Shown piece by piece: positions 1 to 64,000 of a stretch of DNA of 64,000 bases. Numbering within the stretch: position 1 is the first letter of the stretch; each line of letters begins with the position of its first letter. The position numbers and the translations under genes are program-made. The notes under the pieces are model-generated. The model saw only the letters and a program-made list of their open reading frames with translations, was not told where the DNA came from and did no database searches. The stretch is taken from NCBI GenBank assembly GCA_964017155.1, contig OZ024861.1, forward strand, positions 744,001 through 808,000, in the 5' to 3' direction. Source of the DNA: Oasisia sp. SBJ-2009 (taxonomy: Eukaryota > Annelida > Polychaeta > Sabellida > Siboglinidae).

Positions 1-402
1 TACACGACACACGTCTACATGACACACGTCTACATGACACACGACTACATGACACACGTCTACACGACACACGTCTACACGACACACGACTACATGACAC
101 ACGACACACGTCTACACAACACACGACTACATGACTACATGACACACGTCTACATGACACACGTCTACATGACACACGTCTACATGAGACACGTCTACAC
201 TACACACGACTACATGACACACGACTACATGACACACGTCTACATGACACACGTCTACACGACACACGACTACACGACACACGTCTACACGACACATGTC
301 TACACGACACACGTCTACATGACACACGTCTACATGACACACGTCTACATGACACACGTCTACATGACACACGTCTACACGACACACGTCTACACGACAC
401 AT
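1..402. repeat. 15-bp minisatellite in CTPS intron 13
   Basis: About 27 copies of a 15-bp unit (GACACACGTCTACAT and variants CACGAC, CACGTC), running to within 10 bases of the exon 13 donor. 15 is divisible by three, so several frames stay open by chance; these are not genes. Confidence 0.9.
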
Positions 403-412
403 GTAATCATAC

Positions 413-16262
<15,850 letters not shown>

Positions 16263-16311
16263 CGCGGCTCTACCCAGAGCAGCCAGTTTTCTTAATTAAT
16301 TTCCCAAAGTC

Positions 16312-18600
16312 CTGCAAAGAAATTTGCATTCATTATATAATTGTTTCTTATTCATTCAGGATGTTTTCTTCTGACATGCCCATTGAACAAGCACTATCAA
16401 AGTGGTGTGATTGGCTATATAAATAATTAGTACACGTGTAGGTGCACAGCACGTATTTATATGCCAATTGCTGTCTACATGACCCAGATAAAGATGCTAG
16501 TGGATGCAGAAGACAAGGCCGGTCGATGGCCATGGGGACTGTCACCCACAGCCGTGAATGCCGTGCTAACAACACACAGGTGACGATGTGGCTGGTCTAG
16601 AAGCTACATGATTTATTGGGAAACTGTCACAGATCTCCTGTCATTATGTAGCTACATTATTCTTTAGTATTAAACTTGTTAACTACGACCATCCTATTCT
16701 TGTCTAACAAAGACCTTATTTTGATATTAACAGAACATCTGCCGCATGTGATTATCTTTCCATCTCCGAATTTCAGTCAGATCAGTCCATGATAAAGGTA
16801 AGGTAAATTCCATGAAACATGACAAAAAGACAGTTTTCTTAGTTTGAAGGTTTCCACCCCACATGTTTGGCTTTGTAACTTCATATATAATGAACATATC
16901 TTCTTACATGATACATCATGTGAAAGCTGAGATTGTGCTCGTTCCAATGGGGCAAATAACTCAATTAAAAAAATTACTGATATCTGACTCATTTTGTTAT
17001 ATATATATATATATTGTATTTTTTATTCATGAACACAACAAACTAACTACTACACAGGTCCTTGTTCTGATTATTTATGTATGACATGGATAATGTGTAT
17101 TGTTTTGAAATAATGGTCAAATAAAAACAAATTCTTCTTCTTCTTCCTTGCATTTTTGCGCATGCAGCTAGCAGCTGGTCTGCAGTGTGGCTCCCAGCAT
17201 CTAACTCTGCCCACAGTGCGAAGTCGCACAGGTCTGGTATCTCAGGTATGTGTCACACTAGTGCCGCTTTAGCTTGCATTTGGACACAAGCTCAGCATGG
17301 ATTAATACCAGCATTACTTGTAACAAAGTCTCGGAAGCACGTGTGGCACTCTTTGTCACTGTTTTGTTTGTTGTTATTGTCGTCGCATATTTGTGTATTT
17401 TGTTTTGGTTTGTCGCCATTTTGGTGTGTCGCCAATTTAGCATGTAACTGTTTGGGATTTGTCCCCGTCATTTTGCCATGTACCTGAAGAAACTATTCAT
17501 TATGTTGTGTTTAAGAATCTTTAAACAGTGGAAAATAAAACAGGTAAATACAAGGGTATTTTTTTATATATCATAGTCAATATATATTTACACATATCCA
17601 TCAATACAATGTAGAATTGTCGTTAATTAGTAACTAATAATCAACTAAACGGTGGACAACGTTGGATCGAGATCGAACTGAGTCAAGATGTAATGACTAA
17701 TGTAATGACAGAAACTGGCAGACTGAACAGTACCCAGAGACTGGTAGAATGAACAAAGTATAAACCCTCCATGGGTAGATCGAACCCATACATGACTCAT
17801 GAGCACTTCATGAACTACCGTCCGCATGGTCACATCAGTTACCATATCCGATTATCGCTCAATCAATGTCAATCAATGATTCCCAAGACAGTCATAAATA
17901 AAATCTGAATTACTGAACTGTGATCAGTTCAGTAATAATACTCGAATTAAGTACGAAACAGGGATTGTCTCGATTCATCCACGGAAGTTTCAAACAAGTT
18001 CGCGACATGACCATCCGATGGTGACCATGACATGTGCTTGCCGGATCTACATAATTTGCTAAATTGACATGTTACCTGCTATTGCACAATTACCTGCTAA
18101 ACAAGTGTTATACATACCTCACAAAAACATTAGAAATATTGACGGACCAGGCGATAGTAGTTATAACAAACAGTATAACGTAATAGAACACCGCATTTAT
18201 ATCGCCAATGCCATGGCAAAGCCTAGCCTTGCCGAAGCCAGCCACGGTCACGCTGCGTACTCCCCGCATTTCGACATATAAAATTCCCCAAATCAATTTA
18301 TGCTGTTGTCTCTAAAATAATGGCATCATCGCACTCAGCCCCAGAACGTACAACAAAACGCATATTTAAACATCACGTGTTATGTAATGCGTTACCCAAT
18401 GTGCTACATAATAACTGTTTGCACCTAAAACAATACCCTCTGAAAAAAGCATGACAAATACGCACCAAATTTCGTTCCTCGCAAACAGCTGCACTGACTG
18501 ACACTTGCTGTGCCGCTGTGTGGCGCCACGTATATAATAGGACGAGACTATTCGTATCGGAGTCCTATTCGTATTGGTTTATTTCATTCTCTGGGCAATC
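16312..18600. other. CTPS 5' side: putative UTR intron and promoter
   Basis: No conserved coding sequence was found. A likely acceptor at 16312 implies a non-coding CTPS exon upstream. On the minus strand a TATATA word at about 18531-18536 followed by GC-richer sequence could be its promoter, but this is only a guess. There is a short TA tract at 16998-17016. Confidence 0.3.
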
Positions 18601-18946
18601 AATACAGATTGAAATAGGTACATAAAACATGCAAAATATATTTGTTAAAATAGATTGAAATAATATATAATTTAAAACATTAGCATAAATGTAAAATTAA
18701 TTAAAAAAGTAGAGAATAATTTATTTGAAATGCATCTATAAAGGTAATTTAAATAGGTTAAGATATTAAAACATATTTTCTGTGATTATTTGACTAAACT
18801 TAAAAAAATACTTTAATAAAATATTTTAATAAATACTTTAAAACATTAAAATAAATAGATCTAAAGAATAAATTAAGGTTTTACAATATTTTACACATTT
18901 CCATCTATATCAGCATTCACGAAAGTTTGCTAATTAATGGTTGAAA
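18601..18946. other. AT-rich flank of the duplicated block
   Basis: Very AT-rich (TTTAAA/AATATA words) single-copy sequence at the border of the tandem duplication. No gene seen. Confidence 0.5.
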
Positions 18947-19690
18947 AGGCACCAGTTAATGAAGCAGTTCTTGGTTCTGTTGGTTTTGACTCTGGAATAA
19001 GGATATCGAGTTCGGCATCTTGTATTGTATGTTGCAGTTCTTGGTTTTGGTAGAAGTTTATGCAGTTTGTGCTGCGGCTCTTCAATTTGTGTGAAGAAAT
19101 GTTCACATAACTGCGCACGTCTTTGTTTCAGAGAATTATTAAGTCAGCTGTGCATTCGCTAATGCTTCGGCATAGGTAGTGTTCGGGTATATGATGTTCA
19201 TAGCACGTCTTTGTACTCGCTCCATATCACTTTGGAGACCCAATGTGAGTGAGGTCGACCATGCTGGACATGCGTATTCCAGAGTAGGCCGGACCATCGT
19301 TGTATATACCGTCAGAAGGTCTTCGACGGGAATGCCTGATCGTTTGAGTTGTAGCAGTAGAAACAGCCTCTTGCCTGTTTTTCGTGTTATTTCATCAATT
19401 AACGTATACGTCCCATGTCAGGTTGCTGGTGATGGTAATGCCAAGTATCTTCGCCTTGGTTACTCGCTGAGTGTCTGTTCCGTCGATACGTATGGTTGGG
19501 ATCGAAGTTTGTCCTTGTTTTAGAGAAATCAATAACAAGCTCTGTTGTCTTACTTTTGTTGATTTTCATGTCGTTTTGGATTGTCCACAGATATGCCGCA
19601 TCGGCTGCTTCCTGGAGATTTGGTGCTTGGGAGTCTGATCCAGTATAGACGATCGATGCACGTCCCTTGGCAAAAAATTCTATAGAAAAC
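18947..19690 (-). pseudogene. LINE fragment (family 1), copy A
   Basis: Minus-strand conceptual translation, with frameshifts, gives ILGITITSNLTWD, RLFLLLQLKRSGIPVEDLL, TTMVRPTLEYACPAWS, RVQRRAMNIIYP and HKLHKLLPKPR. These are typical of the C-terminal region after the reverse transcriptase in CR1/L2/Rex1-type non-LTR retrotransposons. It is truncated on its 5' side by the foldback element and by stops. Confidence 0.8.
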
Positions 19691-19828
19691 TATAGATTTT
19701 GTATATAGAATTCTGTAGAATTCTAAAGAATTTTGCAGTGTTCTATAGAATTCTACAGACTTTTCTATAGATTGTGTGTGGCCTAAAGTTTTCTATATAA
19801 TTTTATAGATTTTTCTATAGTTTTCTAA

Positions 19829-20150
19829 AGAATTCTATAGATTTTTCTATAGAAAACTATTGGCGAAAATCCTATAGAAAACTATAAGCAAAAATCCTTT
19901 AGAATATTCTAAGGGTACTATAGACCATTATCATACATAATTATTTTAATGTTTTATTTTACCCTCCTGTCTTTGTTTTATCCACCATGTGGAGCATATG
20001 GAGCCACTTCCTGTCTGGTTACCGTTGTAACATCCCTTCGCCAAAAAAAAAACTTTAAATTTTCTATAGAATATTCTATAGGATTTTTGTTTATAGTTTT
20101 CTATAGGATTTTCGCCAATAGTTTTCTATAGAAAAATCTATAGAATTCTT
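19829..20150. mobile_element. TATAG-rich foldback element, copy A
   Basis: An ~83-bp inverted repeat flanks a ~150-bp core. The left arm (19829-19911) contains TTTTTCTATAGAAAACTATT and GGCGAAAATCCTATAG; the right arm (20063-20150) carries the reverse complement almost perfectly. Further CTATAG words extend left to 19675. No coding capacity. Looks like a MITE; family unknown. Confidence 0.8.
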
Positions 20151-20156
20151 TATCCC

Positions 20157-20530
20157 TGTCTGTCAGCCTCCCTCCCTGTCTGTCAGCCTCCCTCCCTCCC
20201 TCCCTCCCTCCCTCCCTCCCTCCCTCCCTCCCTCCCTCCCTCCCTCCCTCCCTCCCTCCCTCCCTCCCTCCCTCCCTCCCTCCCTCCCTCCCTCCCTCCC
20301 TCCCTCCCTCCCTCCCTCCCTCCCTCCCTCCCTCCCTCCCTCCCTCCCTCCCTCCCTCCCTCCCTCCCTCCGTCCCTCCCTCCCTCCCTCCCTCCCTCCC
20401 TCCCTCCCTCCCTGCCTGCCTGCCTGCCTCCCTCCCTCCCACCCTCCCTCCCTCCCTCCCTCCCTTCCTCCCTCCCTCCCTCCCTCCCTCCCTCCCTTCC
20501 TCCCTCCCTCCCTCCCTCCCTCCCCCTCCC
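20157..20530. repeat. (CCCT)n tract, copy A
   Basis: About 370 bases of almost pure CCCT (GGGA on the minus strand), with a few CTGC and CTTC interruptions. Open frames of GREGGREGG type are artefacts. Confidence 0.97.
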
Positions 20531-20749
20531 ACTGCACTGCGAATTAGGGAGACGTAAGACCACAATAAGGTCCTCGTCTTTTTAAGGTCCTCATTTTTCC
20601 GGCGTTAATTATAAACGTTCTGATTGACTTTTCTGTGCATGCGCAATAAATGTAAAATCATCAATGTGCATGCAGCGAAAGGACAAAGCATTTGTGGCAT
20701 AAATATATACCACATTGTTCGTTTGGATGTATATATATAATAATAATAA

Positions 20750-21376
20750 TAATTCCGTTGCTTAATATAGCGCTTTTTAGCTAACTAAATATCAATCAAA
20801 GCGCTTCACATTAATACGATGTGTTCACTAAATCTAAAATCTAAATTAACTAAATACATAAGGTAAGATAACAATAAATAAGCTAAGATAAATAAGTTAA
20901 GATCAATAAAAACGCATTACTATGACGTGTTGACCAAATCTAAAATATAGACTAATTAAATACATAAGGTAAGATCAAATTATTAATCTAATTTAAATAA
21001 ATAAGTAATATAAGAGCAATAAGTAAGTAAAAATAAATAAGCTAAGATAAATAATTATAAAACAATAAATTAGTGTGTAAAAATACAATTCCAAACCGAA
21101 CAATTTAAGACCAAGCAGCGTCATAGAATACAAATCAGTGTGATCAAGGCAGGTAGTGTAAACGAAATAAGTGAGTTTTTAGATGTTTTCTGAAAGCTGC
21201 CAATGTCTCAATTGTTCTCACACTCTTAGGCAAGCTGTTCCACATGGTTGGACCTGCCACTGCAAAACTGCACTTTCCGACCGTTCTCCTCGGCACCGTC
21301 ACTGCGAGCAATGTTACGTCACTCGCTGATCGCAATGCACGAGTAGGCGCGTGGCGAGCTATCGCACAATTGAGGT
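20750..21376 (-). pseudogene. LINE 3' end (family 2), truncated copy A
   Basis: Identical to the 3' part of the LINE at 23641-25600: short TAA-type tail at 20738-20752, 3' UTR, and the last ~70 codons (ending HLFRLHYLP). Truncated at the duplication junction. Confidence 0.85.
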
Positions 21377-22120
21377 AGGCACCAGTTAATGAAGCAGTTC
21401 TTGGTTCTGTTGGTTTTGACTCTGGAATAAGGATATCGAGTTCGGCATCTTGTATTGTATGTTGCAGTTCTTGGTTTTGGTAGAAGTTTATGCAGTTTGT
21501 GCTGCGGCTCTTCAATTTGTGTGAAGAAATGTTCACATAACTGCGCACGTCTTTGTTTCAGAGAATTATTAAGTCAGCTGTGCATTCGCTAATGCTTCGG
21601 CATAGGTAGTGTTCGGGTATATGATGTTCATAGCACGTCTTTGTACTCGCTCCATATCACTTTGGAGACCCAATGTGAGTGAGGTCGACCATGCTGGACA
21701 TGCGTATTCCAGAGTAGGCCGGACCATCGTTGTATATACCGTCAGAAGGTCTTCGACGGGAATGCCTGATCGTTTGAGTTGTAGCAGTAGAAACAGCCTC
21801 TTGCCTGTTTTTCGTGTTATTTCATCAATTAACGTATACGTCCCATGTCAGGTTGCTGGTGATGGTAATGCCAAGTATCTTCGCCTTGGTTACTCGCTGA
21901 GTGTCTGTTCCGTCGATACGTATGGTTGGGATCGAAGTTTGTCCTTGTTTTAGAGAAATCAATAACAAGCTCTGTTGTCTTACTTTTGTTGATTTTCATG
22001 TCGTTTTGGATTGTCCACAGATATGCCGCATCGGCTGCTTCCTGGAGATTTGGTGCTTGGGAGTCTGATCCAGTATAGACGATCGATGCACGTCCCTTGG
22101 CAAAAAATTCTATAGAAAAC
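21377..22120 (-). pseudogene. LINE fragment (family 1), copy B
   Basis: Duplicate of 18947-19690 with the same frameshifts, so the decay preceded the segmental duplication. Confidence 0.8.
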
Positions 22121-22580: not shown

Positions 22581-22586
22581 TATCCC

Positions 22587-27085: not shown

Positions 27086-27089
27086 GTGT

Positions 27090-28260: not shown

Positions 28261-28261
28261 C

Positions 28262-36850: not shown

Positions 36851-36907
<57 letters not shown>

Positions 36908-45530: not shown

Positions 45531-46100
45531 GTCAGTGTCATCAAGTACTGGGACTGAGTCAGTGTCATCAAGTACTGGGACTGAGTCAGTGTCATCAAGT
45601 ACTGGGACTGAGTCAGTGTCATCAAGTACTGGGACTGAGTCAGTGTCATCAAGTACTGGGACTGAGTCAGTGTCATCAAGTACTGGGACTGAGTCAGTGT
45701 CATCAAGTACTGAGACTGGGTGAGTGTCATCAAGTACTGAGACTGAGTCAGTGTCATCAAGTACTGGGACTGAGTCAGTGTCATCAAATACTGGGACTGA
45801 GCGAGTGTCATCAAAGTACTGGGACTCAGTCAGTGTCATCAAGTACTGGGACTGAGTGTCATCAAGTACTGGGACTGAGTCGGTGTCATCAAAGTACTGG
45901 GACTGAGTCGGTGTCATCAAAGTACTGGGACTGAGTGAGTGTCATCAAGTACTCAGACTGAGTGAGTGTCATCAAGTACTGGGACTGAGTGAGTGTCATC
46001 AAGTACTGGGACTGAGTCGGTGTCATCAAGTACTGGGACTGAGTCAGTGTCATCAAGTACTGGGACTGAGTCAGTGTCATCAAGAACTGGGACTATGTCA
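45508..46100. repeat. 27-bp minisatellite containing CDC40 stop codon
   Basis: About 21 copies of GTCATCAAGTACTGGGACTG + AGTCAGT. The first copy is the end of the coding region (IKYWD then TGA) and the rest lie in the 3' UTR, so the C-terminal codons and stop are restated about 20 times after the true stop. Confidence 0.96.
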
Positions 46101-46200
46101 CTGTCACCAGGCACTGGTATCACACTGTGTATAATTTGTAAATATATCTTCATTTATAAAACCAGCCAAAAAGATTGTGCATAAAACACATACAGAAGAA

Positions 46201-48919: not shown

Positions 48920-51900
48920 CTGAAAGCACACGAGTGACTACAAACCACCACTGTTTTCAATATCTCTCTTCTAATAACAGAATTGCAATACTACTAAAAT
49001 TCAATAGAAACATATTTATATTCTTTCACTAAGTTGACATTCAACAAGACTGCAGCTGCGCACTGTGCAAAGACCAAGAAATCCAAACGTTTGTATTTAT
49101 ATAACTATGTCTTACCTGCTTAAAGGTATCAACATCTGTACATTCTCATTAGCAAAATGTCTGCCATGTACTTACAATACGGAAATGACTGCAACATATA
49201 TCTAGCTAAAATAGCTATAACTGAGCTACTTATGTGGTTATGTATGCAGGATTCAATCAGCGATTCTCATAATGTTTTGCTGGATTGGTTGGAGTGTCAC
49301 ATGACAGGTGTGTGGTTGTAGTGTCACATGACAGGTGTGTGATTGTAGTGTCACACGACAGGTGTGTGATTGTAGTGTCACACGACAGGTGTATGATTGT
49401 AGTGTCACATTACAGGTGTGTGATTGTAGCGTCACACGACAGGTGTGTGATTGTAGTGTCACATTACAGGTGTGTGATTGTAGTGTCACACGACAGGTGT
49501 GTGATTGTAGTGTCACATGACATGTGTGTGATTGTAGTGTCACATTACAGGTGTGTGATTGTAGTGTCACATGACAGGTGTGTGATTGTAGTGTCACACG
49601 ACAGGTGTGTGATTGTAGTGTCACATTACAGGTGTGTGGTTGTAGTGTCACACAACAGGTGTGTGGTTGTAGTGTCACATGACAGGTGTGTGATTGTAGT
49701 GTCACATGACAGGTGTGTGGTTGTTGTGTCACATGACATGTGTGTGATTGTAGTGTCACACGACAGGTGTGTGATTGTAGTGTCACACGACAGGTGTGTG
49801 GTTGTTGTGTCACATGATAGGTGTATGGTTGTTGTGTCACATGACAGGTGTATGGTTGTAGTGTCACATGACAGGTGTGTGGTTGTTGTGTCACATGACA
49901 GGTGTGTGGTTGTTGTGACACATGACAGGTGTTTGGTTGTAGTGTCACATGACAGGTGTGTGGTTTAGTGTCCCATGACAGGTGTGTAGTTCTAGTGTCA
50001 CATGACAGGTTTGGTGTTGTAGTGTCACATGACAGGTGTGTGGTTCTAGTGTCACATGACAGGTTTGTTGTTGTAGTGTCACATGACATGTGTGTGGTTC
50101 TAGTGTCACATGACAGGTTTGGTGTTGTAGTGTCACATGACAGGTGTATGGTTGTAGTGTCACATGACAGGTATGTGGTTGTAGTGTCACATGACAGGTG
50201 TGTGGTTGTAGTGTCACATGACAGGTGTGTGGTTGTAGTGTCACATGACAGGTGTGTGGTTGTAGTGTCACATGACAGGTGTGTGGTTGTAGTGTCACAT
50301 GTCAGGTGTGTAGTGTCCTACCTGGTGACTGCCTTGTGGAAGTCAGTGAGTTGTTTGTGTGTGGCTGTGACGGCGCCGCCGCTGTTCTCTGTCGGCAGAC
50401 CCTTCAACGTCACCTCCAGCCACTTACACACAGCCTGCAACAGACAGGACCTTTAACACACAGCCTGCAACACACAGGACCTTTAACACACAGCCTGCAA
50501 CACACAGGATCTTTAACACACAGCCTGCAACACACAGGACCTTTAACACACAGCATACAACACACAGGACCTTTAACACACAACCTACAACATACAGGAC
50601 CTTTAACACACAGCTTACAATACACATGACCTTTAACACACAACCTACAACACACAGGACCTTTAACACACAGTTTACAACACACAGGACCTCACATCCT
50701 CTCAATGGTTGTTCTTACGTTTGGGCAAAGGTTGTTCACGTGTGTCAGCCTCCCTAACTAACACACAACCGACAGTGGACAAGACATCACCAATATAGGA
50801 GGGAAGAAGGGTGACCAATGCAAGCGTGTATAAACAAGCTGCATTGACTGACACTGACACTGACACTGACACTGACACTGACCGGTCGATCTAGGAGCAG
50901 CAGGACATAGATGACGTCGGCGGAGTCAGTGAGGAGGTAGGACGGGAGGGAGAAGATGCAGGCATTGAGGAGGGCGGTCACTAGGAGCTGACCCTGCTCC
51001 CTCAACAACCCCTCCACCAGGGAGCGGCGCGTCTCAAAGTCATCCTTGTCCTACAACAACCAACAACAAGTGTGTTTTAGGCGGTTCTTGGGCGGTTCTT
51101 GGGCGGTTCTTAGGCATACATGTTAAGTTTTGGAAATGCCAATGTGGGAGATTTATACGTAAATCGGAGGGTCTCGGGGAAAACGGCATTTTATACGTAA
51201 ATCGGAGGGTCTTGGAAAATTGGGCTATTATACGTAAATTAGGTTTTTAACCATAAATGCAAATAATATAATACAAAAAGGAATAAATTGCACTGATTAA
51301 GATATTTACATAGATTTTTTGTTATATGAATTAACTTATTTTGGAGCAAAACCATTCTTGGAGCCATGAACAATAGATGTTTTATTATCACTAGTCATAA
51401 TACCACAAATATAATAAATTCCCTGCTAATCTCATTGGCATGTTTGTTGAACTTCTGATATGAATCATATGTTGCAAAAAAATCCCTTGGATGAAAAGCA
51501 GCAGCATCTACATGATATTTTATTACACAACTAATATAATCTTTACATGTAAAACTTGAATAGGGAATTCATTATTTATGAGCTGGACTGAGCCATGGTG
51601 ACATAGGCTCGACTGGAGCCATTTAAATAACTATGCTTTCTCAACTGTTGAGAATGTTTTTCATTTACATGTCAAATGTACTCAAATAGTAAAGAGCTTA
51701 GCAAAAGTACATATATTTACAAACGTGCACATGTAGTATAGATGTATGGATGGCCATTATTCCATTAGATCTAAACGGATTGCACTTTGTATTACAAGAC
51801 TGGAACGTACACAGCGGGCGATAATAGGGTATCAAAGCGGCTCGCGGTGATTCTACCAAGCTAATAAACAATGTCAGCGACAGGCAAAGTGTAGGCTTTG

Positions 51901-54900
51901 TACTTAGATATTTATTAGACAGTTTTTAATGTTCAGTCATCACAGTAAGACGGGATTTAAATAGTTCCAATTCAGGTCATTGTTCAAATCATTGTCTGCA
52001 CCGGCGAGCGCCCGGCGATGTCTGTGAGCATTAGCTCAGTCTCAGACTCGATTGCAATTAGTTAACTGGCACTACATTGTGAGGTGACACAGAAAAGCAC
52101 ACACGACAATACCCAGCCAGAAATAAACCAATTATCCGCACCCAGTTAGGTAACTTAGGTCAAATTTGTTTGTTTTTGGTGTTGGAGTCTCCCGCAATTT
52201 TTTTCACTTACATTTCAGTGAAATTGCGGGAGATTGGTTCTCCCGTGCGGGAGATCGGGAGATTTCCTGTAAATTGCGGGAGTCTCCCGCCGAATGCGGG
52301 AGACTTAACATGTCTGTTCTTAGGCGGTTCTTGGGTGGTTCTTAGGCGGTTCTTAGGCGGTTCTTAGGCGGTTCTTATGTAGTTTCCTCCAAACAGCCCA
52401 AACTTGGGAGTTCTCTAGAATTAGTAAGTTCATTACAGGTTACACATTTACCCCCTGTGTGGGATCTTTTACTTCCCCTGGCATAGACACCAGAGAGAAG
52501 GGACTAGCGATTTTTAGTGTCTCTTCCGAAAGACATAGGCAAATGTGGGGTGAACAAAATTGCCTAAGTTTCGAAACGGCGGCAGGTGGGATTGAACCAC
52601 CGTCCCCTCGATTCACAGTCCGGTGCTCTACCACACAACCACCGCTGTGGTGTGCGTACAATGTCACATTTCAATGCTACCGTGATGATAGTGTATATAT
52701 GTGGACATTATATTTTCAGACACCCTAAAATATACAAAAGTATTATTTTATTGTATTCAGTTTTTGGACATGTGATGTTATGTGCAGATCCTAGACTGGT
52801 GCAGCTACTGAAATAATAATAACAAGATTTTGTATTAATTGTCTTAAATGAACACAAAATGAAACTTGGGGGAGAATCAGCAAAAGATTTATTGCATATT
52901 GTCTGCATGCTATAACTAAGAAATAGTAATTACTGTAGAGGTCAAAAAGAAACGTAAAAACCTATTTAAAGAAAACAATTCTCCACATCTTTATCCCTTT
53001 CATGTTTTCAAATTATCTTTTCACTTTTTTCCTGGCACACAAATGCAGCTTTTGACAAATTTCCAAACATTCCTTTACGAACAAACACATGACTAACGTA
53101 TGCGAGGTAGACACAGTCCACTCACCTCCTTCACACTGGCTGTCTTGATGAGTTCAGACAGAAACTTGGTGACGGAGGCATTGGCTTCTCGGTGATCTAG
53201 ACTACAGGCTGCGATGGCACAGCACAGCACGGGCTTCATGACAGGGCTCTGCAGCAGCGCCACCGGTGTGCGTTGAGTGAACCTGTGGTATGTAGCCATG
53301 GCTGTTATTAATCGGATTAAAAACTGTACACATTTGTTGTGTTAATTATTTTCACCTGCACATTTAACCCATATGTATGTGTTTATTTTTCTTTCCATTA
53401 TTTGCGTCAACATTTTAAACTTGTCCTTATTTATGACCTACTTACATTAATATACACTGGCCATTACACAGCAGCTTGCCCGCCCACACAACAACAAACA
53501 AACGACAGGAATGAGCAATCTTACAGTAGTTCGATCCTTTAAAAAATCCTCCCTTAGTGGCGCCCTCTGGAGAAGTGAGTCACCCATAAATGCCGGAGAA
53601 AGGCCCTCTAGAAAGCACATCACCGGTTGGTAGATGAGAGGTCAAAGCGATACATAGCCAAATGACGTATGCGGACGTTGCTGCTTGGGAGGTGATGCTT
53701 TTGTACTGGCCCCAAACACACACATAACATTCTGCATAATACGACCACTGTACACATTTTTTGACAAATCAGTAGCATACATAACTGCTCCCCAGTCACA
53801 TTCAATATGACACGTTAACTGCAAATATTTGCAGCATACGTACATACTACACATAATATGTAACTAGTACTAACTACCCACCACAATCACATTCAATTTG
53901 TGACAGCATTCACACCCTGTGCTGACACAAGCATCAGAGCAGTGCAACAATGTAACTTAAAATGAAAACAATGTTTCGATTGATTTGAAGAAAAATAGAG
54001 AAAGAAAAATATTTATGTGATTTAGCTAGACATATTGATGATTGCATTACCTAAGACAGAGACGGAAGAAATCATCGACCGTGTCCGGGTGATTCTTGAG
54101 GCCGTTGTGCTCCTCCAACTGCTTGAAGGCGGGAACACAGAACGCCTACAACAACATTCCCTATTATCACTCACTGCCTTGAAGGCGGGAACACAGAACG
54201 CCTACAACAACATTCCCTATTATCACTCACTGCCTTGAAGGCGGGAACACAGAACGCCTGCAACAACATTCCCTATTATCACTCACTGCCTTGAAGGCGG
54301 GAACACAGAACGCCTACAACAACATCCCCTATTATCACTCACTGCCTTGAAGGCGGGAACATAGAACGCCTACAACATCCCCTATTATCACTCACCGCCT
54401 TGAAGGCGGGAACACAGTACGCCTGCAACAACATCCCCTATTATCACTCACTGCCTTGAAGGCGGGAACACAGAACGCCTGCAACAACATCCCCTATTAT
54501 CACTCACTGCCTTGAAGGCGGGAACACAGAACGCTTACAACATCCCCTATTATCACTCACTGCCTTGAAGGCGGGAACACAGAACGTGTTCAACATCACC
54601 CTGTTACTGTCTCAAGCTTTGGCTAGTTTGTTCATTCTCTGTCGCTCCAGTTCACTCAGTATGTAAGAATGAATACATGGTTAAAGACAGTGGTGGATAT
54701 TTGTGTACAAGTGCATGAATGGCAGTGTGGCTGAATGGTACCCAGGGAAGTTGAGATGATGTTTGATCGAATAGGTCTACTAGGGACTAAAGTATAAATA
54801 CAGCTCTTTGAGTTGTCCCAAGGATTGGATGTTGCACAATGCAGAAACTTACCTTTACCTATTTCAATGAAACAACATATTGAGTGACTCATATTGACTT

Positions 54901-57900
54901 TTGTGGGATCATCCGGCCATGTTACAGGCATTGAGCAAAGATTATACATACACAAATATCAACCACTCAACACTTGCGCAAGATGATTATAAATAGTAGA
55001 AAACACAAAAACTCCTCAGTAAATATGTGTAGTATGTAAGGTTTAAGGTTTATTCAGAACGTTGCATCTAGAACATTGCACTCAGACAACAATAAACACA
55101 CAATACAAACAGGCAAATTTGCCTACAACACTACAATCTACAAAGTTTATTACTATAACTTATTTGCATAATAGCATATATTTTACTAATAATTACCTAA
55201 TCAATTAGTCAAAACGTATTAGTTAGATTGTTTTTATTTACTGTGTTGTACTAAAATAAATGTCACTAAGGTCACTCCCATGAAAGTGACATTCATACGG
55301 GAGTCTCCAAGTTACAAGATCACAGGGATCTACGTTTATTATATCGTGACATGTTCTAATACTGTTAACAATTATCTTGACGTTATCACGCTCTACACAT
55401 GTATCACACGAACCACCACAACTCACTGACTGGGTCTGTCACAGTCCTGCACTGCAGACAGGTTAATCTTTCATATCTGTCACATCCTCACTTCTAAGCT
55501 ATCAAATCTGACATGTTTGGCATGAGGCTCACATATCTAGCTTTTATTTCACACTGCTATATGTAAATCTCACACATTTAATATTAAATATTACTAATAT
55601 AAACAAGCTTATTTCCATGCACCGTTTGATATATTCAATTTATATGCACATGTGATATCCCAGTATCTGTGAATCGACAAGGTCACTCTTATCAGTGCTG
55701 TGTAAACTGAAGTATCCTCAGTGATGATGTCACTGACTAGACAACACTGCCACCTGATGTTTTCTTGGGGAACTAGATCTCATATATTTCTGGCTGGAAC
55801 TTGCCAGTTCTGAATAATTATATCAGGTGGAAAACATCATAATATTATCAATTTACTTTTACTTACTGACAGTGATTAGTTTTGGATTTACAGAATATGT
55901 CAAAATATAATAAAAAGAAACTTGTGAACGTCACTGAAATGTTTTGTGATATCACAGAAGCACAATGTTGTCCACTTCCCCCCAGTGTCGAGATTATAAA
56001 TTTTGTATCATACAAATATTGATCAGCGACTACTTCCCTTGCCACTACTTCCCTTGCCACTACTTCCCTTGCCACTACTTCCCTTGCCACTACTTCCCTT
56101 GCCACTACTTCCCTTGCCACTACTTCCCTTGCCACTACTTCCCTTGCCACTACTTCCCTTGCCACTACTTCCCTTGCCACTACTTCCCTTGCCACTACTT
56201 CCCTTGCCACTACTTCCCTTGCCACTACTTCCCTTGCCACTACATCCCTTGCCACTACTTCCCTTGCCACTACTTCCCTTGCCACTACTTCCCTTGCCAC
56301 TACTTCCCTTGCCACTACTTCCCTTGCCACTACTTCCCTTGCCACTACTTCCCTTGCCACTACTTCCCTTGCCACTACTTCCCTTGCCACTACTTCCCTT
56401 GCCACTACTTCCCTTGCCACTACTTCCCTTGCCACTACTTCCCTTGCCACTACTTCCCTTGCCACTACATCCCTTGCCACTACTTCCCTTGCCACTACTT
56501 CCCTTGCCACTACTTCCCTTGCCACTACTTCCCTTGCCACTACTTCCCTTGCCACTACTTCCCTTGCCACTACTTCCCTTGCCACTACTTCCCTTGCCAC
56601 TACTTCCCTTGCCACTACTTCCCTTGCCACTACTTCCCTTGCCACTACTTCCCTTGCCACTACTTCCCTTGCCACTACTTCCCTTCCCACTACTTCTCTT
56701 CCCACTACTTCCCTTCCCACTACTTCTCTTCCCACTACTTCCCTTCCCACTACTTCCCTTCCCACTACTTCCCTTCCCACTACTTCCCTTCCCACTACTT
56801 CTCTTCCCACTTCTCTTCCCACTACTTCCCTTCCCACTACTTCCCTTCCCACTACTTCCCTTCCCACTACTTCTCTTCCCACTACTTCTCTTCCCACTAC
56901 TTCCCTTCCCACTACTTATCTTCCCACTACTTCCCTTCCCACTACTTCCCTTCCCACTACTTCCCTTCCCACTACTTCTCTTCCCACTTCTCTTCCCACT
57001 ACTTCCCTTCCCACTACTTCCCTTCCCACTACTTCCCTTCCCACTACTTCCCTTCCCACTACTTCCCTTCCCACTACTTCCCTTCCCACTACTTCCCTTC
57101 CCACTACTTCCCTTCCCACTACTTCCCTTCCCACTACTTTTCTTCCCACTACTTCCCTTCCCACTACTTCCCTTCCCACTACTTTTCTTCCCACTACTTC
57201 CCTTCCCACTACTTCTCTTCCCACTTCTCTTCCCACTACTTCTCTTCCCACTACTTCCCTTCCCACTACTTCCCTTCCCACTACTTCCCTTCCCACTACT
57301 TCCCTTCCCACTACTTCCCTTGCCACTACTTCCCTTCCCACTACTTCCCTTCCCACTACTTCCCTTCCCACTACTTCTCTTCCCACTACTTCTCTTCCCA
57401 CTACTTCCCTTCCCACTACTTCTCTTCCCACTACTTCCCTTCCCACTACTTCCCTTCCCACTACTTCCCTTCCCACTACTTCTCTTCCCACTTCCCTTCC
57501 CACTACTTCCCTTCCCACTACTTCCCTTCCCACTACTTCCCTTCCCACTACTTCTCTTCCCACTTCTCTTCCCACTACTTCTCTTCCCACTACTTCCCTT
57601 CCCACTACTTCCCTTCCCACTACTTCCCTTCCCACTACTTCTCTTCCCACTACTTCCCTTCCCACTACTTCCCTTTCCACTACTTCCCTTCCCACTACTT
57701 CCCTTCCCACTACTTCCCTTCCCACTACTTCCCTTCCCACTACTTCTCTTCCCACTACTTCCCTTCCCACTACTTCCCTTCCCACTACTTCCCTTCCCAC
57801 TACTTCCCTTCCCACTACTTCCCTTCCCATTACTTCCCTTCCCACTACTTCCCTTCCCACTACTTCCCTTCCCACTACTTCCCTTCCCACTACTTCCCTT

Positions 57901-60900
57901 CCCACTACTTCCCTTCCCACTACTTCTCTTCCCACTTCTCTTCCCACTACTTCCCTTCCCACTACTTCCCTTCCCACTACTTCCCTTCCCACTACTTCCC
58001 TTCCCACTACTTCCCTTCCCACTACTTCTCTTCCCACTACTTCCCTTCCCACTACTTCCCTTCCCACTACTTCCCTTCCCACTACTTCCCTTCCCACTAC
58101 TTTTCTTCCCACTACTTCCCTTCCCACTACTTCCCTTCCCACTACTTTTCTTCCCACTACTTCCCTTCCCACTACTTCCCTTCCCACTACTTCCCTTTTC
58201 TTGCAGAATATTGTTTAACTTCTCTCAGATTATTCGCAAACCATTTGTTCGTTTACGGGGACAACTAATCGTGTCCTGATTCGTGTTTCCTCGTCTTGAC
58301 AGCGCAATCAGACGTTTAATCAAACACGAAAACACATGGGATAATATTTTCATCAAACGTCAGGCTGGGTGTGTCCGCCATATGACGCTAACAACGCATC
58401 CGTGTCTCCCATTGTTCACACTTCAGGGCTGTGTGGTTCTGTGAAGGATGTCCGTGGGGAAAACATCAATATGAGCCCCCCGTGGCACGCCTGCTGATGG
58501 ATGACGTCAGGATGTGGACACCGTTCACAATGGCGCCATTCACAAATTCTTTTCCATCAGACTTGTCATTTCGTAGCACATGACATTTTCTCCTGCGAGT
58601 TATGTTTGACATGTATGCTTATGGTCACTATAAATACCTGTGCAAAAGTGAAAAGATGCTGTGATGAATGGGAGCTCGTATGTGGGCTGAAATGGGCACA
58701 ACAACGACCCACCCCCGGAGACACGAGGGACACACAAGGGACACACAAGGGACACACCAGGGACACACAAGGGACACGCCAGGGACAAGGGGCAAACAAC
58801 TTAACAAACACAATTTTATTTGATAAACATTCTGAAACACGCTATTACTGTAAGTGTTGGTGTCTATTTTGTCTTTTTTGTGGCTTTGAAAAGAGAAGAA
58901 ATGTACACAGTGGAGCCTCTCAGTTAAGGTCACCCTTGGGACTGTGCAAGTGACCTGATTAATGAGGTGACCTTATTAAAAGGGTGACCTTATTAGCAAG
59001 ACTAATTTCCTATGCTGTTCTAATTTCCTACTCCTTTAGTAGTTCTGAGCGCTGCTTCTAATGACTACTTGGTGTGTTGACCGTTGACTGACCTGCAGCA
59101 TTCCCAGAAGGCCTTGCTCACAGGAAGCCTCACTTCCGTACTCATCGACAAGGATGCTGCCAAGGTACAGGAAGCAGGAGTGTTTGTGTGTCTGATAGAG
59201 AGTCACCATCTGAAAGAACGACAGACACTATATCTTACAGAGAGTCACCATCTGAAAGAACGACAGACACTATATCTTACAGAGAGTCACCATCTGAAAG
59301 TACGACAGACACTATATCTTACAAAGAGTCACCATCTGAAAGTACGACAGACACTATATCTTACAGAGAGTCACCATATGAAAGTACGACAGACACTATA
59401 TCTTACAGAGTCACCATCTGAAAGAACGACAGACACTATATCTTACAGAGAGTCACCATCTGAAAGAACGACAGACACTATATCTTACAGAGAGTCACCA
59501 TCTGAAAGAACGACAGACACTATATCTTACAGAGAGTCACCATCTGAAAGAACGACAGACACTATATCTTACAGAGAGTCACCATCTGAAAGAACGACAG
59601 ACACTATATCTTACAGAGAGTCACCATCTGAAAGTACGACAGACACTATATCTTACAGAGAGTCACCATCTGAAAGTACGACAGACACTATATCTTACAG
59701 AGAGTCACCATCTGAAAGTACGACAGACACTATATCTTACAGAGAGTCACCATCTGAAAGAACGACAGACACTATATCTTACAGAGAGTCACCATCTGAA
59801 AGAACGACAGACACTATATCTTACAGAGAGTCACCATCTGAAAGAACGACAGACACTATATCTTACAGAGAGTCACCATCTGAAAGAACGACAGACACTA
59901 TATCTTACAGAGAGTCACCATCTGAAAGAACGACAGACACTATATCTTACAGAGAGTCACCATCTGAAAGAACGACAGACACTATATCTTACAGAGAGTC
60001 ACCATCTGAAAGAACGACAGACACTATATCTTACGGAGAGTCACCATCTGAAAGAACGACAGAAACTATATCTTACAGAGAGTCACCATCTGAAAGTACG
60101 ACAGACACTATATCTTCTACAACACGTTATATATTCTACAACACACACTCCAATACAAAAACACCTCAAACAAGTCGACTACAAACAGATCACACTTGTG
60201 ATGATTTATGTTGTTTGTTCCAAGCTTAATGAAGTAACTTAACAGGCAGTGGTCGGCAGTGAACAGAAACGTAATATTAAATGAAACAAATAAAACCCAG
60301 GAACTTTGAAATTGTCGTCACTTATGGAAATGAACACTACATCAGTGTTACATCCACATATGTACCTGCATGACTAGATCAGTGTCACATCCACCTACCT
60401 GCATGACTAGATCAGTGTCACATCCACCTACCTGCATGACTAGAGGAGTGAGGAGAGTGACTGATCCCTTGCCGACACACCGCACAGCAAATCTTATGCA
60501 GCGACAACATCGCTCGATGATGCGAACGTCCGACTGGTAGCGGTCACATGTCCGAGAGAGAATCGGCCAAACCTGAAGACATCCACCAGGTGGACACATG
60601 AATACATCCACCAGGTGGACACATGAAGACATCCACCAGGTGGACACATGAAGACATCCACCAGGTGGACACATGAAGACATCCACCAGGTGGACACATG
60701 AAGACATCCACCAGGTGGACACATGAAGACATCCACCAGGTGGACACATGAAGACATCCACCAGGTGGACACATGAAGACATCCACCAGGTGGACATATG
60801 AAGACATCCACCAGGTGGACACATGAAGACATCCACCAGGTGGACACATGAAGACATCACCAGGTGGACACATGAAGACATCCACCAGGTGGACACATGA

Positions 60901-63729
60901 AGACATCCACCAGGTGGACACATGAAGACATCCACCAGGTGGACACATGAAGACATCACCAGGTGGACACATGAAGACATCCACCAGGTGGACACATGAA
61001 GACATCCACCAGGTGGACACATGAAGACACGGCACATGCAAAGAACAAACTCAACACAGCTGTCTGGATGATGAACCAACAACACTTATGCTGGTTTTGA
61101 TTGGGTGAATATCTTTATCTTTTTATAACATTAATTAATATTTAATACATTTAATATCATATATAGCTGTATTTATTTTTGCAATTTAAATCAATATGTA
61201 ACGTTTAGTTTCAATTGTGCAACCAATAATTTTATTTATTATTTCAGTTATAATTCCACATATACTTTGAGATGTGTCAAATTAATAATTTATATATGCA
61301 TTTATATACTATTCATATTAATTAAATTATTGCATTAGAGCATAAAGTAATTAAGTCATTGTATACAGGTTTTATTTAAAATTATTACAAAAGTACATTA
61401 TGGGAATTATGTCAATAAAATTACATGTACATAACATGTCATAATTGTGATTTATATTCTACAAAGTACAAATAGTCTGACCACCCAGTGAAGTGTTTGC
61501 AACTTCTTTGTACTAATGTTTCATTAACAAACATTTATTAAGATACACACACTGCCTTCTATAGCAATTAGGTAGAAAATCATCACAGCATTAATTTATT
61601 GGAGCAATACCTTCCTGCTTGGCTATTTACGCTAGACAGGTGGGAAATGAATTACAACTTTGCAACAGCCATACTAGACTAGTTGACCACGGATACAGCC
61701 GGAGCACCGCAATAAAGAACATTAAAATAATCAATCGTCCATAGCATGTTGACCAGTCATTAGGTCTGAAAAATACATAAATCACCACTGAATGTTGACT
61801 ACAGTGGTCAGTGGCCACTGGACTAGACTGCTGACCAAGACTGTGGCCACTGGACTAGATTGCTGACCAAGACTGACATAATTCTGAAACTCGGTCAGCT
61901 TTCTTCACCTTATTTTGCTGTGATCCTGACATACCGACTGTTAATACTAAGGCTGGTCCCCATGATGTCAGTTCAACAGGATGATTATTTAAATTATTTT
62001 ATGTACATGCAACAGTCTGGTAAAAATGCACCATTCAACATATGATAGCTTCTAATAAAAAATATTTTTTTTAGTCAATGAAGATTCAGGTTAAAAAGTC
62101 TGTAAAATAAAAAAAAAACGGAACTGGCAGTTTTCAACTCTATAATTTAAGACATTATCCTGCAAGTTAGTTTCAACATAACAAGTGTTATCAGTTGCTA
62201 AACAGTGACCTTTCTACAGTAACCAACTACCCTAAATGGTGTCACCAGAACCCACCTCAGTGACGACAGGTTGACAGGGATGGGTCTGTCCATTCGTCAC
62301 TGTGGGATTCGTATGTCTACAACAGCGACAGTGAATACATTCAAGAGACACACACTACGTCACAAATGAAACAATTACCACAAATGTTTTTAAACAGCAG
62401 ATTGTGAGGGCTAATTTTTGGGATTGTTTAGATGAATATGTAAACGATCAGTTTCTAAAAAAAATTATTACTTCTTTGAAGGGTACAAATTATGTAAAAA
62501 TTAATTTGGTTTATTGTAAGTAAAAATGTAGTAATGTGTCATTTAGCAATCACATATTGTTTAACAACTTAAAATGCACTACAATTTATTAACTATAATG
62601 CATATTATATTGGTGCTGGATGAAAGTACCAAATAACCAATGTGCTTAAAATGTCTCTGTCCATTACAATTTTAATTTCCAATATATACATGTATTGAAT
62701 GTGAGTTAACTGGAAATGAAGAATTGAACAGCTAACTTTGTAGTGTCACGTTGTGACTTCATATAGCACTTCCTGTTTGTGTAATAGGACACGCTTCTTC
62801 TGTTACTTGGCATAATATAATCACTGACACTGACTGGTTTGATGTCATATGGTGTAATAACACACACTGGCCAGCTTTTGTCTCAGGACAAAGCGCCTGT
62901 CATTTGTGTCAACTGACACTGGCCAGCTTTTGTCTCAGGACAAAGCGCCTGTCATTTGTGTCAACTGACACTGGCCAGCTTTTGTCTCAGGACAAAGCTC
63001 CTGTCATTTGTGTCAACTGACACTGGCCAGCTTTTGTCTCAGGACAAAGCTCCTGTCATTTGTGTCAACTGACACTGGCCAGCTTTTGTCTCAGGACAAA
63101 GCTCCTGTCATTTGTGTCAAATGACACTGGCCAGCTTTTGTCTCAGGACAAAGCTCCTGTCATTTGTGTCAACTGACACTGGCCAGCTTTTGTCTCAGGA
63201 CAAAGCTCCTGTCATTTGTGTCAACTGACACTGGCCAGCTTTTGTCTCAGGACAAAGCTCCTGTTATTTGTGTCAACTGACACTGGCCAGCTTTTGTCTC
63301 AGGACAAAGCTCCTGTCATTTGTGTCAACTGACACTGGCCAGCTTTTGTGTCAGCACAAAGCTCCTGTCATTTGCGTCAACTGTCACTGGTGAGTTGCCA
63401 CACGACATCGCGCCTGTCTCATCTGTCACTGTCTTCCAACTACTCACCTGTTCCATCCCTGTTAGTCTATTGATTGCACACAATGTGACAACACCAACTA
63501 ATGCAAAGCTTACCAAGAAGTAATGTTTTCTTCTGTCAAACACAGAACAGCTATAAATAGACAGACACATGAAGTGAATCTGAGCTCCATTAGCTGTACT
63601 GTGTTTATACAGATTCATCTAAAACTCTTACCTGAAGATAATTGCGAGCCTGTCAATCCAATTAGTCGGGTCGTCTTTGCTGCCCGCGATGACCTTACTT
63701 GTGCTCACTTCTTTCTCTTCGTCCATTAA
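48859..63729 (-). CDS. TNPO3: Transportin-3 gene, last 9 coding exons
   Basis: TNPO3 (transportin-SR2) is an importin-beta family, HEAT-repeat receptor that carries phosphorylated SR splicing factors into the nucleus. Exons in transcript order: 63729-63632, 62316-62256, 60572-60432, 59209-59093, 54145-54051, 53282-53126, 51050-50883, 50434-50322, 48919-48859. They join in frame to 335 residues plus stop, the C-terminal third of a ~920-residue protein. Diagnostic segments are [90 protein letters not shown] and the terminal REFQRLFR. The N-terminal Ran-binding part lies beyond the window. TNPO3 and the related IPO13 differ in these motifs; the match is to TNPO3. Confidence 0.95.
49289..50318. 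repeat. 27-bp minisatellite beside TNPO3 donor 50322
   Basis: About 37 copies of GTGTCACATGACAGGTGTGT + GGTTGTA, reaching within about 5 bases of the donor. 27 is divisible by three, so frames stay open on both strands by chance. Variants (CACGAC, CATTAC, TTTGGTG) cluster. Confidence 0.94.
50322..50434 (-). CDS. TNPO3: TNPO3 exon
   Basis: Encodes [20 protein letters not shown] and [17 protein letters not shown]. Acceptor GTTGCAG (copied in the 30-bp array), donor CAG|GTAGGA; ends phase 2. Confidence 0.95.
50424..50692. repeat. 30-bp minisatellite containing TNPO3 acceptor
   Basis: About nine copies of CACACAGCCTGCAACACACA + GGACCTTTAA. On the minus strand every unit restates the acceptor and start of the 50434 exon (GTTGCAG|GCTGTGTG). 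Distal copies lose it (CTTACAATA). Confidence 0.93.
50843..50884. repeat. Hexamer repeat containing TNPO3 donor
   Basis: About seven ACTGAC hexamers next to the exon ending at 50883. On the minus strand CCG|GTCAGT is followed by reiterated GTCAGT, i.e. the donor word itself. Confidence 0.9.
50883..51050 (-). CDS. TNPO3: TNPO3 exon
   Basis: 56 codons: [40 protein letters not shown] and [11 protein letters not shown]. Acceptor GTTGTAG, donor CCG|GTCAGT; the donor word GTCAGT is repeated in the adjoining hexamer array. Confidence 0.95.
51075..51114. repeat. 11-bp GGCGGTTCTTA array, left part
   Basis: Three to four copies left of the hAT-like element; the array resumes at 52317. Confidence 0.85.
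51115..52316. mobile_element. Non-autonomous hAT-like transposon, 8-bp TSD
   Basis: 1202-bp insertion with inverted ends CATACATGTTAAGT and CAGACATGTTAAGT. Perfect 8-bp flanking repeats TTCTTAGG lie at 51107-51114 and 52317-52324. It splits an 11-bp GGCGGTTCTTA array. The interior has TATACGTAAATCGGAGGGTC repeats and, near the right end, nested inverted GCGGGAGA/TCTCCCGC words. No transposase frame. Confidence 0.82.
52317..52378. repeat. 11-bp GGCGGTTCTTA array, right part
   Basis: Five to six copies right of the hAT-like element, continuing the array at 51075-51114. Confidence 0.85.
52430..52660 (-). mobile_element. tRNA-derived SINE (second family)
   Basis: On the minus strand, a tRNA-like head: acceptor-type GCGGTGG, A-box-like TGTGGTAGAGCACCGG, anticodon loop CTGTGAA (GTG, His-like) and B box GGTTCAATCC. 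A non-tRNA body with TCTTTCGGAAGAGACACTAA follows. The anticodon stem is mismatched, so it is not a working tRNA gene. Confidence 0.65.
52670..53125. other. TNPO3 intron, no feature seen
   Basis: AT-rich sequence between the SINE and the 53126 donor; nothing recognised. Confidence 0.5.
53126..53282 (-). CDS. TNPO3: TNPO3 exon
   Basis: Encodes [40 protein letters not shown] and IKTASVKE. Acceptor CCACAG, donor GAG|GTGAGT; ends phase 0. Confidence 0.95.
53283..54050. other. TNPO3 intron, no feature seen
   Basis: Single-copy intron sequence without recognised elements or arrays at its borders. Confidence 0.5.
54051..54145 (-). CDS. TNPO3: TNPO3 exon
   Basis: Encodes [20 protein letters not shown] then [11 protein letters not shown]. 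Acceptor GTTGTAG, donor TTAG|GTAATG; ends phase 2. The acceptor and first 24 exon bases recur in the 56-bp array. Confidence 0.95.
54120..54597. repeat. 56-bp minisatellite containing TNPO3 acceptor and exon start
   Basis: About eight units of 53-56 bp. On the minus strand each reads GTTGTAG|GCGTTCTGTGTTCCCGCC, TTCAAGGCA|GTGAGTGATAA: the acceptor of the 54145 exon and 24 of its bases, then a new donor-like GTGAGT. Each unit thus resembles a complete 27-base exon. Confidence 0.95.
54598..56025. other. TNPO3 intron, single-copy
   Basis: 1.4 kb of AT-rich intron sequence with no recognised element. Confidence 0.5.
56030..58197. repeat. 15-bp pyrimidine-rich satellite, two domains
   Basis: About 144 copies of 15 bp in two homogeneous domains: GCCACTACTTCCCTT (56030-56690) and CCCACTACTTCCCTT with CTCTT/TTCTT variants and 9-base deletions (56690-58197). 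The minus (transcribed) strand is GGGAAGTAGTGGGAA-rich. Very long open frames in all directions are artefacts. Confidence 0.97.
58198..59092. other. TNPO3 intron, 5'-side stretch
   Basis: Contains six to seven 11-bp GGGACACACAA repeats at 58720-58795. A stretch at 58905-59000 (CAGTGGAGCCTCTCAGTTAA and GTGACCTTATTA words) resembles the end of a pogo/Tigger-type DNA transposon. No gene seen. Confidence 0.5.
59093..59209 (-). CDS. TNPO3: TNPO3 exon
   Basis: 39 codons: [39 protein letters not shown]. Acceptor TTCTTTCAG, donor CAG|GTCAGT; phase 0 at both ends. The acceptor and first 13 bases are the unit of the 42-bp array. Confidence 0.94.
59197..60118. repeat. 42-bp minisatellite containing TNPO3 acceptor
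   Basis: About 22 units of 42 bp (one is 40). On the minus strand each reads GTTCTTTCAG|ATGGTGACTCTCT|GTAAGATAT: the acceptor and first 13 bases of the 59209 exon, followed by a donor-like GTAAGA. AACG/TACG variants cluster. Confidence 0.96.
60355..60447. repeat. 33-bp repeat containing TNPO3 donor
   Basis: Three copies of ~34 bp. On the minus strand CTAGTCATGCAG|GTAGGTGG recurs, i.e. the last 12 bases of the 60432 exon and its donor; the third copy reads CAG|GTACAT. Confidence 0.9.
60432..60572 (-). CDS. TNPO3: TNPO3 exon
   Basis: Encodes [36 protein letters not shown] and LLTPLVMQ. 47 codons, phase 0 at both ends. Acceptor TCTTCAG; donor CAG|GTAGGT, itself copied twice downstream. Confidence 0.95.
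60574..61030. repeat. 25-bp minisatellite at TNPO3 acceptor 60572
   Basis: About 18 copies of GAAGACATCCACCAGGTGGA + CACAT, running up to the acceptor CTTCAG. Each unit holds the palindrome TCCACCAGGTGGA. Confidence 0.94.
61031..62255. other. TNPO3 intron, no feature seen
   Basis: 1.2 kb of very AT-rich single-copy intron with no recognised element. Confidence 0.5.
62256..62316 (-). CDS. TNPO3: TNPO3 exon
   Basis: A 61-base exon completing Arg and encoding [20 protein letters not shown], conserved in TNPO3. Acceptor TTGTAG, donor GAG|GTGGGT. Too short to show up as an independent open frame. Confidence 0.93.
62317..62858. other. TNPO3 intron, no feature seen
   Basis: AT-rich single-copy intron. 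Confidence 0.5.
62859..63375. repeat. 52-bp minisatellite in TNPO3 intron
   Basis: About ten copies of a 52-bp unit (ACTGGCCAGCTTTTGTCTCA, GGACAAAGCTCCTGTCATTT, GTGTCAACTGAC), very homogeneous. It is mid-intron and not attached to a splice site. Confidence 0.95.
63632..63729 (-). CDS. TNPO3: TNPO3 exon (first in window)
   Basis: Encodes [20 protein letters not shown] then [12 protein letters not shown]. Acceptor TTTCAG; donor CAG|GTAAGA; ends phase 2. The preceding exon is outside the window. Confidence 0.9.
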
Positions 63730-64000
63730 CTGAAAGTGCAAAACCAGTCAGTAGTGAAGTATTTTTATAACAATAATTTTATTTCTTCATTATTCACACA
63801 GCTTTACCAATTAATGTGCTTCATATGATAAACTACATGTCGACTAAATGGTAAACAATTCAGTAAATTAAGTTGAAACCTAAAATATTTATAGTTTTAA
63901 GATACAGTTTAAAAGAATGCAGTTAATAACCAGTACATAAAAAATAGAAGGAAGTGTCACCTAGATGTGCTTTTAAAAATAAACAACAATACCTGTACAC
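63730..64000. other. TNPO3 intron at window edge
   Basis: AT-rich intron sequence upstream of the 63729 exon; no exon seen. Confidence 0.5.

Follow-up and report, generated by a model that had tools for sequence, protein, structure and literature searches.

We show here that intronic minisatellites in the genome of a vestimentiferan tubeworm (Oasisia sp.) commonly have a repeat unit that straddles an exon–intron border, duplicating the splice signal together with adjoining exon bases, and that arrays at or over such borders lie at acceptors far more often than at donors. The pattern is real and non-random, and represents a known class of repeats, the 'mirage' minisatellites, in a new phylum. 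We suggest, with a probability that we put at roughly three in four, that these minisatellites were born at the loci where they lie, as duplications of exon borders that are tolerated, and that their births occur in excess at 3' splice sites. The pattern was first noticed in a stretch of 64,000 nucleotides, here called the window (assembly GCA_964017155.1, contig OZ024861.1, positions 744,001–808,000), and an earlier note on this DNA forms the starting point of several comparisons below.

Within the window the exons of CTPS, CDC40 and TNPO3 were placed by a custom splice-aware protein-to-DNA alignment with human CTPS1, CDC40 and TNPO3 as queries, the letters of which agree with PDB chains without a single difference for the complete CTPS1 (591 aa) and TNPO3 (923 aa) and for 309 aa of CDC40, the remaining 270 aa of the CDC40 query lying outside the PDB-checked part. 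The alignment gave 13 CTPS exons (− strand), 13 CDC40 exons (+ strand) and 9 TNPO3 exons (− strand) with GT–AG borders, and hence 32 mapped introns with 64 splice sites and an intron total of 43,532 bp. The spliced CDC40 model matches the Ridgeia piscesae protein over its full length and without gaps (565 of 576 residues identical), and there is an insertion at 0 of the 12 CDC40 junctions. The same protein identifies the lineage: identity is 98 % to Ridgeia piscesae, a siboglinid, vestimentiferan annelid, then 78 % to the scallop Ylistrum, and 68 % to Branchiostoma lanceolatum, so the amphioxus lineage entertained in the earlier note has to be given up, as has a coral lineage, which had also come under consideration. 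The assembly comprises 764 Mb (574.9 Mb is the figure for the Ridgeia piscesae draft in the available text of PMC9921365), and we read its large contigs, from C1 (71 Mb) to C14 (42 Mb; eleven lengths seen), as 14 chromosomes, accompanied by a mitochondrial contig; C15 has 11,486 bases. The mitochondrial role seems to fall to C33, in which COX1 (C33:7013–8353, L032) carries 11 internal TGA codons. In an N-terminal extension of TNPO3 the alignment exons 1–9 were spurious and were discarded; kept from the extensions were two extra TNPO3 introns, the more 3' of which has a GC donor, uncertain borders and no array, and one CTPS intron. The 40 kb adjoining the window on that side (L020–L023) gave no match to roughly the first 500 aa of TNPO3, its N-terminal part, which may be separated from the rest by a very long intron. 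On this TNPO3 side, about 34 kb past the window end, there is a long single-exon frame (L023:3658–4980, +) that presumably encodes something resembling a seven-helix receptor.

TRF returned 95 rows for the 64-kb window, and arrays with a period of at least 8 cover 44 % of the introns, 4.6 % of the exons and 10 % of the intergenic stretch 16263–28428. Two near-identical blocks lie in this stretch (about 19676–21054 and about 22106–23958, together 19676–23958), each containing a CCTC repeat, for which TRF counts 84 and 204 copies; sequences 94–100 % identical to the 3' end of the block occur by the dozen, dispersed over all 14 large contigs. A reverse-transcriptase fragment of a retroelement (Pfam RVT_1; 24607–25227, −) is also found between CTPS and CDC40.

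Counting arrays with a TRF period of at least 8, a score of at least 40 and at least 6 exon bases covered, we find that 12 of the 64 splice sites in the window are straddled, with 6–33 exon bases inside the array. In CTPS (−) these are the exon 2 donor (array 14265–15309, 55 bp × 19, 33 exon bases, exon 2 at 15277–15447; TRF also gives a period of 164, equal to 3 units), the exon 4 donor (12085–12120, 12 bp × 3, 6 exon bases, exon 4 at 12115–12231), and the acceptors of exon 6 (7573–8754, 28 bp × 44, 10 exon bases, exon 6 at 7502–7582), exon 9 (5237–5518, 25 bp × 11, 7 exon bases, exon 9 at 5060–5243) and exon 10 (3084–3909, 37 bp × 22, 24 exon bases, exon 10 at 3001–3107). In CDC40 (+) they are the exon 3 acceptor (31472–32014, 42 bp × 13, 17 exon bases, exon 3 at 31998–32127), the exon 7 donor (37357–38066, 36 bp × 20, 10 exon bases, exon 7 at 37152–37366) and the exon 8 acceptor (38284–38468, 62 bp × 3, 12 exon bases, exon 8 at 38457–38604), and at all three the junction matches the Ridgeia protein. 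TNPO3 (−) contributes the donor at 60432 (60363–60444, 33 bp × 2.5, 13 exon bases) and the acceptors at 59209 (59197–60116, 42 bp × 22, 13 exon bases), 54145 (54118–54586, 56 bp × 8.5, 28 exon bases) and 50434 (50426–50692, 30 bp × 9, 9 exon bases). At the end of CDC40 a further array (45511–46117, +, 27 bp × 22.5) has a unit that includes the last 17 coding bases and TGA, just as had been claimed, and the surplus copies of this C-terminal coding end sit in the 3' UTR. The coordinates in the earlier note agree with those of TRF, and its claim of straddling units at 13 splice sites and one stop codon holds in so far as all 14 borders carry an array and 11 of the 13 splice-site units copy both the signal and exon bases; it fails for the CTPS exon 4 donor, whose unit is CCACAGGGCAGT and whose copies have lost the GT, and for the TNPO3 donor at 50883, where a 6-bp ACTGAC repeat of the donor sequence (50847–50882, −) begins at the first intron base and includes zero exon bases.

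Seven further arrays in the window (by TRF, where about eight had been proposed) lie within 15 bases of a splice site without overlapping it, and six of the seven are at acceptors. The array begins 8 bases upstream of the CTPS exon 3 acceptor (12806–12879, −, 17 bp × 4), 5 bases upstream of that of exon 5 (9578–9795, −, 35 bp × 6) and 7 bases upstream of that of exon 8 (6194–6768, −, 23 bp × 25); it stops 10 bases upstream of the CDC40 exon 10 acceptor (40980–41053, +, 11 bp × 6.7) and 2 bases upstream of the exon 11 acceptor (42953–43460, +, 22 bp × 23). In TNPO3 an array begins 2 bases upstream of the acceptor at 60572 (60574–61029, −, 25 bp × 18), and the only donor case begins 11 bases into the intron from the donor at 50322 (49286–50311, −, 27 bp × 38).

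To gauge such figures we used a null that reduces every array to a single unit and lets its seed fall uniformly over all positions touching its intron; TRF rows with a period below 8 or a score below 50 were left out, as were rows overlapped by more than 30 % by a better-scoring row. The expectation so obtained is generous, since it ignores selection against broken exons, and it leans on the single-unit collapse and on present-day intron lengths, shorter introns at birth giving a higher expectation. In the window 12 of 47 arrays straddle a junction against 3.87 expected (P=1e-4). Since the window was picked for its striking look, other introns provide the fairer test, and mapping of XPO1, KPNB1 and UBA1, together with the three extra CTPS and TNPO3 introns, added 71 introns (48,934 bp, 14.6 % in arrays), in which 4 of 23 arrays straddle against 2.28 expected (P=0.17, with the S9 peptidase gene not yet added). 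With the 11 introns of that gene the set grows to 82 introns, in which straddling by itself is only weakly in excess (6 of 28 arrays against 2.91, P=0.048), and arrays that straddle or lie within 16 bases number 13 against 5.57 expected (P=6e-4), the 16-base limit having been taken from the 'about 15 bases' of the earlier note at a time when the offsets of the first 23 arrays had already been seen. Four random 10-kb stretches, two of which contain runs of N, were left out of the background. Pooled over 114 introns (102,663 bp, 75 arrays), in figures that take in the window where the pattern was first noticed, straddling arrays number 18 against 6.78 expected (P=2.4e-5; 13 at acceptors and 5 at donors, in 16 introns), and arrays within 16 bases or straddling number 32 against 12.37 (P=7e-9).

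The excess is not shared evenly between the two ends of the intron, and the concentration is more properly described as one at acceptors than at junctions in general. Acceptors account for 25 of the pooled near-or-straddling arrays and donors for 7 (p=0.002), the symmetric null predicting about 6.2 per side, and in the 82 other introns the counts are 11 and 2 (p=0.022); the comparison of acceptors with donors is free of the problem of intron length at birth. Considering arrays of at least 3 copies in the 81 introns of at least 420 bp, base 10 inside the acceptor is covered in 19 of 81 and base 10 inside the donor in 4 of 81 (p=0.001), and mid-intron positions in 66 of 243. Array cover at acceptors is therefore at the mid-intron level and no higher, and it is in excess only when set against the seed null and against donors; we reason that uniform seeds would leave both intron ends about as bare as the donors are. 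Border probes that make no use of TRF give a similar picture, at least 2 further intron copies being found for 13 of 114 acceptors and 3 of 114 donors (p=0.017), with 0 of 228 exon interiors and 98 of 570 random intron positions. The asymmetry is confined to the last tens of bases: when all distances are considered, 39 of 70 arrays have the acceptor as their closer junction and 31 the donor, which is no clear preference (p=0.40), and mid-intron arrays are common, 40 of 70 lying neither near nor over a junction. Two other properties of the arrays proved uninformative. A sense-strand G skew is positive in 34 of 47 arrays, yet it is also positive in 73 of 99 cases for array-free intron sequence, and the units of 40 mid-intron arrays do not look like decayed splice sites, sense and antisense strands being alike (acceptor p=0.60, donor p=0.48).

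The straddling units hold gene-specific exon bases (6–36), from which it follows that the straddling arrays were born in place. We reject an origin as introner-like or transposon-born introns, since the straddling units differ between arrays and contain the bases of their own exon. As to the manner of birth, we suggest that a segment across the exon edge, mostly of 25–62 bp, would be tandemly duplicated by slippage or unequal exchange and would then expand. The exon-adjacent copy would preserve both exon and signal, making the change nearly neutral, and the surplus copies would end up as decoys in the intron, or in the 3' UTR past a stop codon, with the spliceosome picking the site closest to the exon, the last of the acceptors or the first of the donors. 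Such births would be non-uniform: donors would receive them at about the uniform rate, while at the 3' splice site, with its branch point, polypyrimidine tract, AG and adjoining exon bases, they would be concentrated.

One array may preserve a trace of its birth. The S9 peptidase gene (Pfam PF00326), which was met in neighbouring DNA, has 11 introns and 5 arrays, of which 2 straddle, both at acceptors; its exons come mostly from a coding-potential scan rather than from a homologous protein, those at 51127–51213 and 55113–55238 (joined C3 stretch) were set by eye, and the latter was recognized since its array looked acceptor-like, which favours the acceptor reading for 1 of the 28 arrays. In the acceptor array at L028:4207–5147 (37 bp × 25) the unit includes the first 22 exon bases and an acceptor, and nearly one full unit (35–36 bases by TRF) lies within the exon. 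Beside those 22 bases the exon reads GCTCTGTGCCTGTGG, which by eye agrees at 10 of 15 positions with ACTCTGAGTTTGTAG, the acceptor that comes first in the array. This suggests that the array was born between an acceptor-like exon stretch and the acceptor itself, and the pair would form an imperfect direct repeat of the sort that slippage needs. As a general cause, microhomology at acceptors is unsupported by the flanks of 51 array-free introns, in which short direct repeats are about equally frequent on the two sides (5-mers, 5.9 at acceptors versus 5.6 at donors, p=0.3); since acceptor flanks are no richer in such repeats, the asymmetry is not accounted for by a simple propensity to slip. The odds are about even that the acceptor excess stems from a hotspot of mutation associated with the 3' splice site. 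The more far-reaching proposal, that some transcription- or splicing-related process makes the 3' splice site a birth hotspot and that acceptor-anchored duplication is a main route of intron growth in this lineage, is one that we advance tentatively, judging it closer to one chance in three.

It could be argued that no hotspot is necessary, births being uniform and selection purging the arrays that break exons so that those at borders survive. Donors do fit the uniform null (7 against about 6.2), an edge of constraint other than a splice site is enough, to judge by the stop-codon array, and straddling alone reaches just P=0.048 outside the window. Selection against broken exons, however, can only reduce straddling below the null, and what is seen is 18 against 6.78 and 32 against 12.37, with 25 arrays at acceptors against 7 at donors; we consider uniform births improbable.

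The decoys themselves are well preserved. At 16 junction arrays (the window and the XPO1, KPNB1 and UBA1 set) we counted 234 decoy copies by ungapped matching with a mismatch of at most 28 %, so that a few may be chance matches, and with the two S9 arrays left out; AG or GT is intact in 221 of the 234 (142 of 153 acceptor decoys and 79 of 81 donor decoys), and a simple splice score places 157 of the 234 level with or above the real site. GT is present in 18 of 18 decoys at the CTPS exon 2 donor, in 19 of 19 at the CDC40 exon 7 donor and in 40 of 41 at the UBA1 intron 19 donor, where 37 equal or exceed the score of the real site. AG is present in 40 of 43 at the CTPS exon 6 acceptor, in 10 of 10 at exon 9 and in all 25 matches at exon 10 (3 more than the copy number of the array, so a few are chance), as well as in 20 of 21, 6 of 8 and 5 of 8 at the TNPO3 acceptors 59209, 54145 and 50434. 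Splicing appears to take the exon-proximal copy, that is the last acceptor or the first donor, as the earlier note had it; we infer this from the protein alignments, with which it is consistent, and from one independent protein model, the gapless Ridgeia CDC40.

A selected function, whereby repetition of the branch point, polypyrimidine tract and AG would aid recognition of the 3' splice site and so favour acceptor arrays, would agree with the acceptor bias and with the intact AG of the acceptor decoys. Against it, in 13 of the 15 testable arrays splicing to the nearest decoy would cause a frameshift (8) or introduce an in-frame stop (5), and it would do neither at the TNPO3 intron 3 donor (+33) and the KPNB1 intron 6 acceptor (+42); donor decoys are equally intact, and recent expansion alone yields such similarity among copies. 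We hold a selected function to be very unlikely. In KPNB1 intron 6 (L014:7747–8126, −) the unit is 42 bp long with 33 exon bases, and the nearest decoy adds 42 in-frame, stop-free bases; this decoy is a possible source of protein variants. That the repeats were collapsed or expanded in assembly is scarcely credible: arrays of 1–2 kb are difficult to assemble, but the copies show individual variants and higher-order patterns, the contigs are of chromosome size and the flanking exons are read through in seven genes.

Returning to our preferred reading, that of tolerated border duplications born in place, the link drawn in the earlier note to a published class is borne out. Minisatellites of this kind were named 'mirages' for amphioxus Adh3 and the globins BflGb6 and BflGb9, and their generality in cephalochordates was suggested; in its available text the report cites two papers on other loci, gives units of 10–72 bp at Adh3 and of about 150–160 bp at the globins, and describes RT-PCR indicating regular splicing (PMC3087553). 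The tubeworm arrays share units that span the exon–intron border, occurrence at donors as well as acceptors, and many copies with AG or GT (PMC3087553, as available). In particular, border-spanning units with exon bases occur at the 12 window sites and in 6 arrays of the 82 other introns, the units are of minisatellite size (12–62 bp after dividing multiples), and both 5' and 3' borders are affected (5 donors and 13 acceptors). A further trait of mirages is instability of length between alleles, and the tubeworm data cover one haplotype. The differences are that the host is an annelid, that seven unrelated genes are involved (16 of 114 introns), that arrays reach about 44 copies and that one lies at a stop codon; the acceptor bias is likewise a feature of the tubeworm, not described for the amphioxus mirages in the available text of PMC3087553.

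Ordinary intronic VNTR minisatellites have unit sizes and homogenized copies like those of the tubeworm arrays, but a large minority of the latter are anchored on splice sites. A further parallel is the gain of introns when AG/GT proto-splice sites are duplicated in tandem (Rogers 1989, as cited in PMC3087553; PMC4974935, in the text available); there, too, the duplicated sequence carries splice signals and lies beside exons, whereas in the tubeworm it is existing introns that grow. Among the matches listed for tubeworm and border-repeat literature there was no report of annelid mirages or of an acceptor bias, which is weak evidence of absence, and a word search of the available text of three tubeworm genome papers (PMC9921365, PMC10192322, PMC8789280) found no mention of such repeats.

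Finally, mirage repeats, a curiosity of a handful of amphioxus genes, turn out on these observations to be frequent in another phylum (16 of 114 introns), and their presence there implies either multiple origins or that they have been widely overlooked. The arrays constitute a natural experiment on splice-site choice, in which up to about 40 near-identical sites stand side by side and, as far as the protein alignments indicate, the protein would come from the exon-proximal one alone. In addition, the asymmetry in favour of acceptors opens the growth of introns and the birthplace of minisatellites to genome-wide counting.
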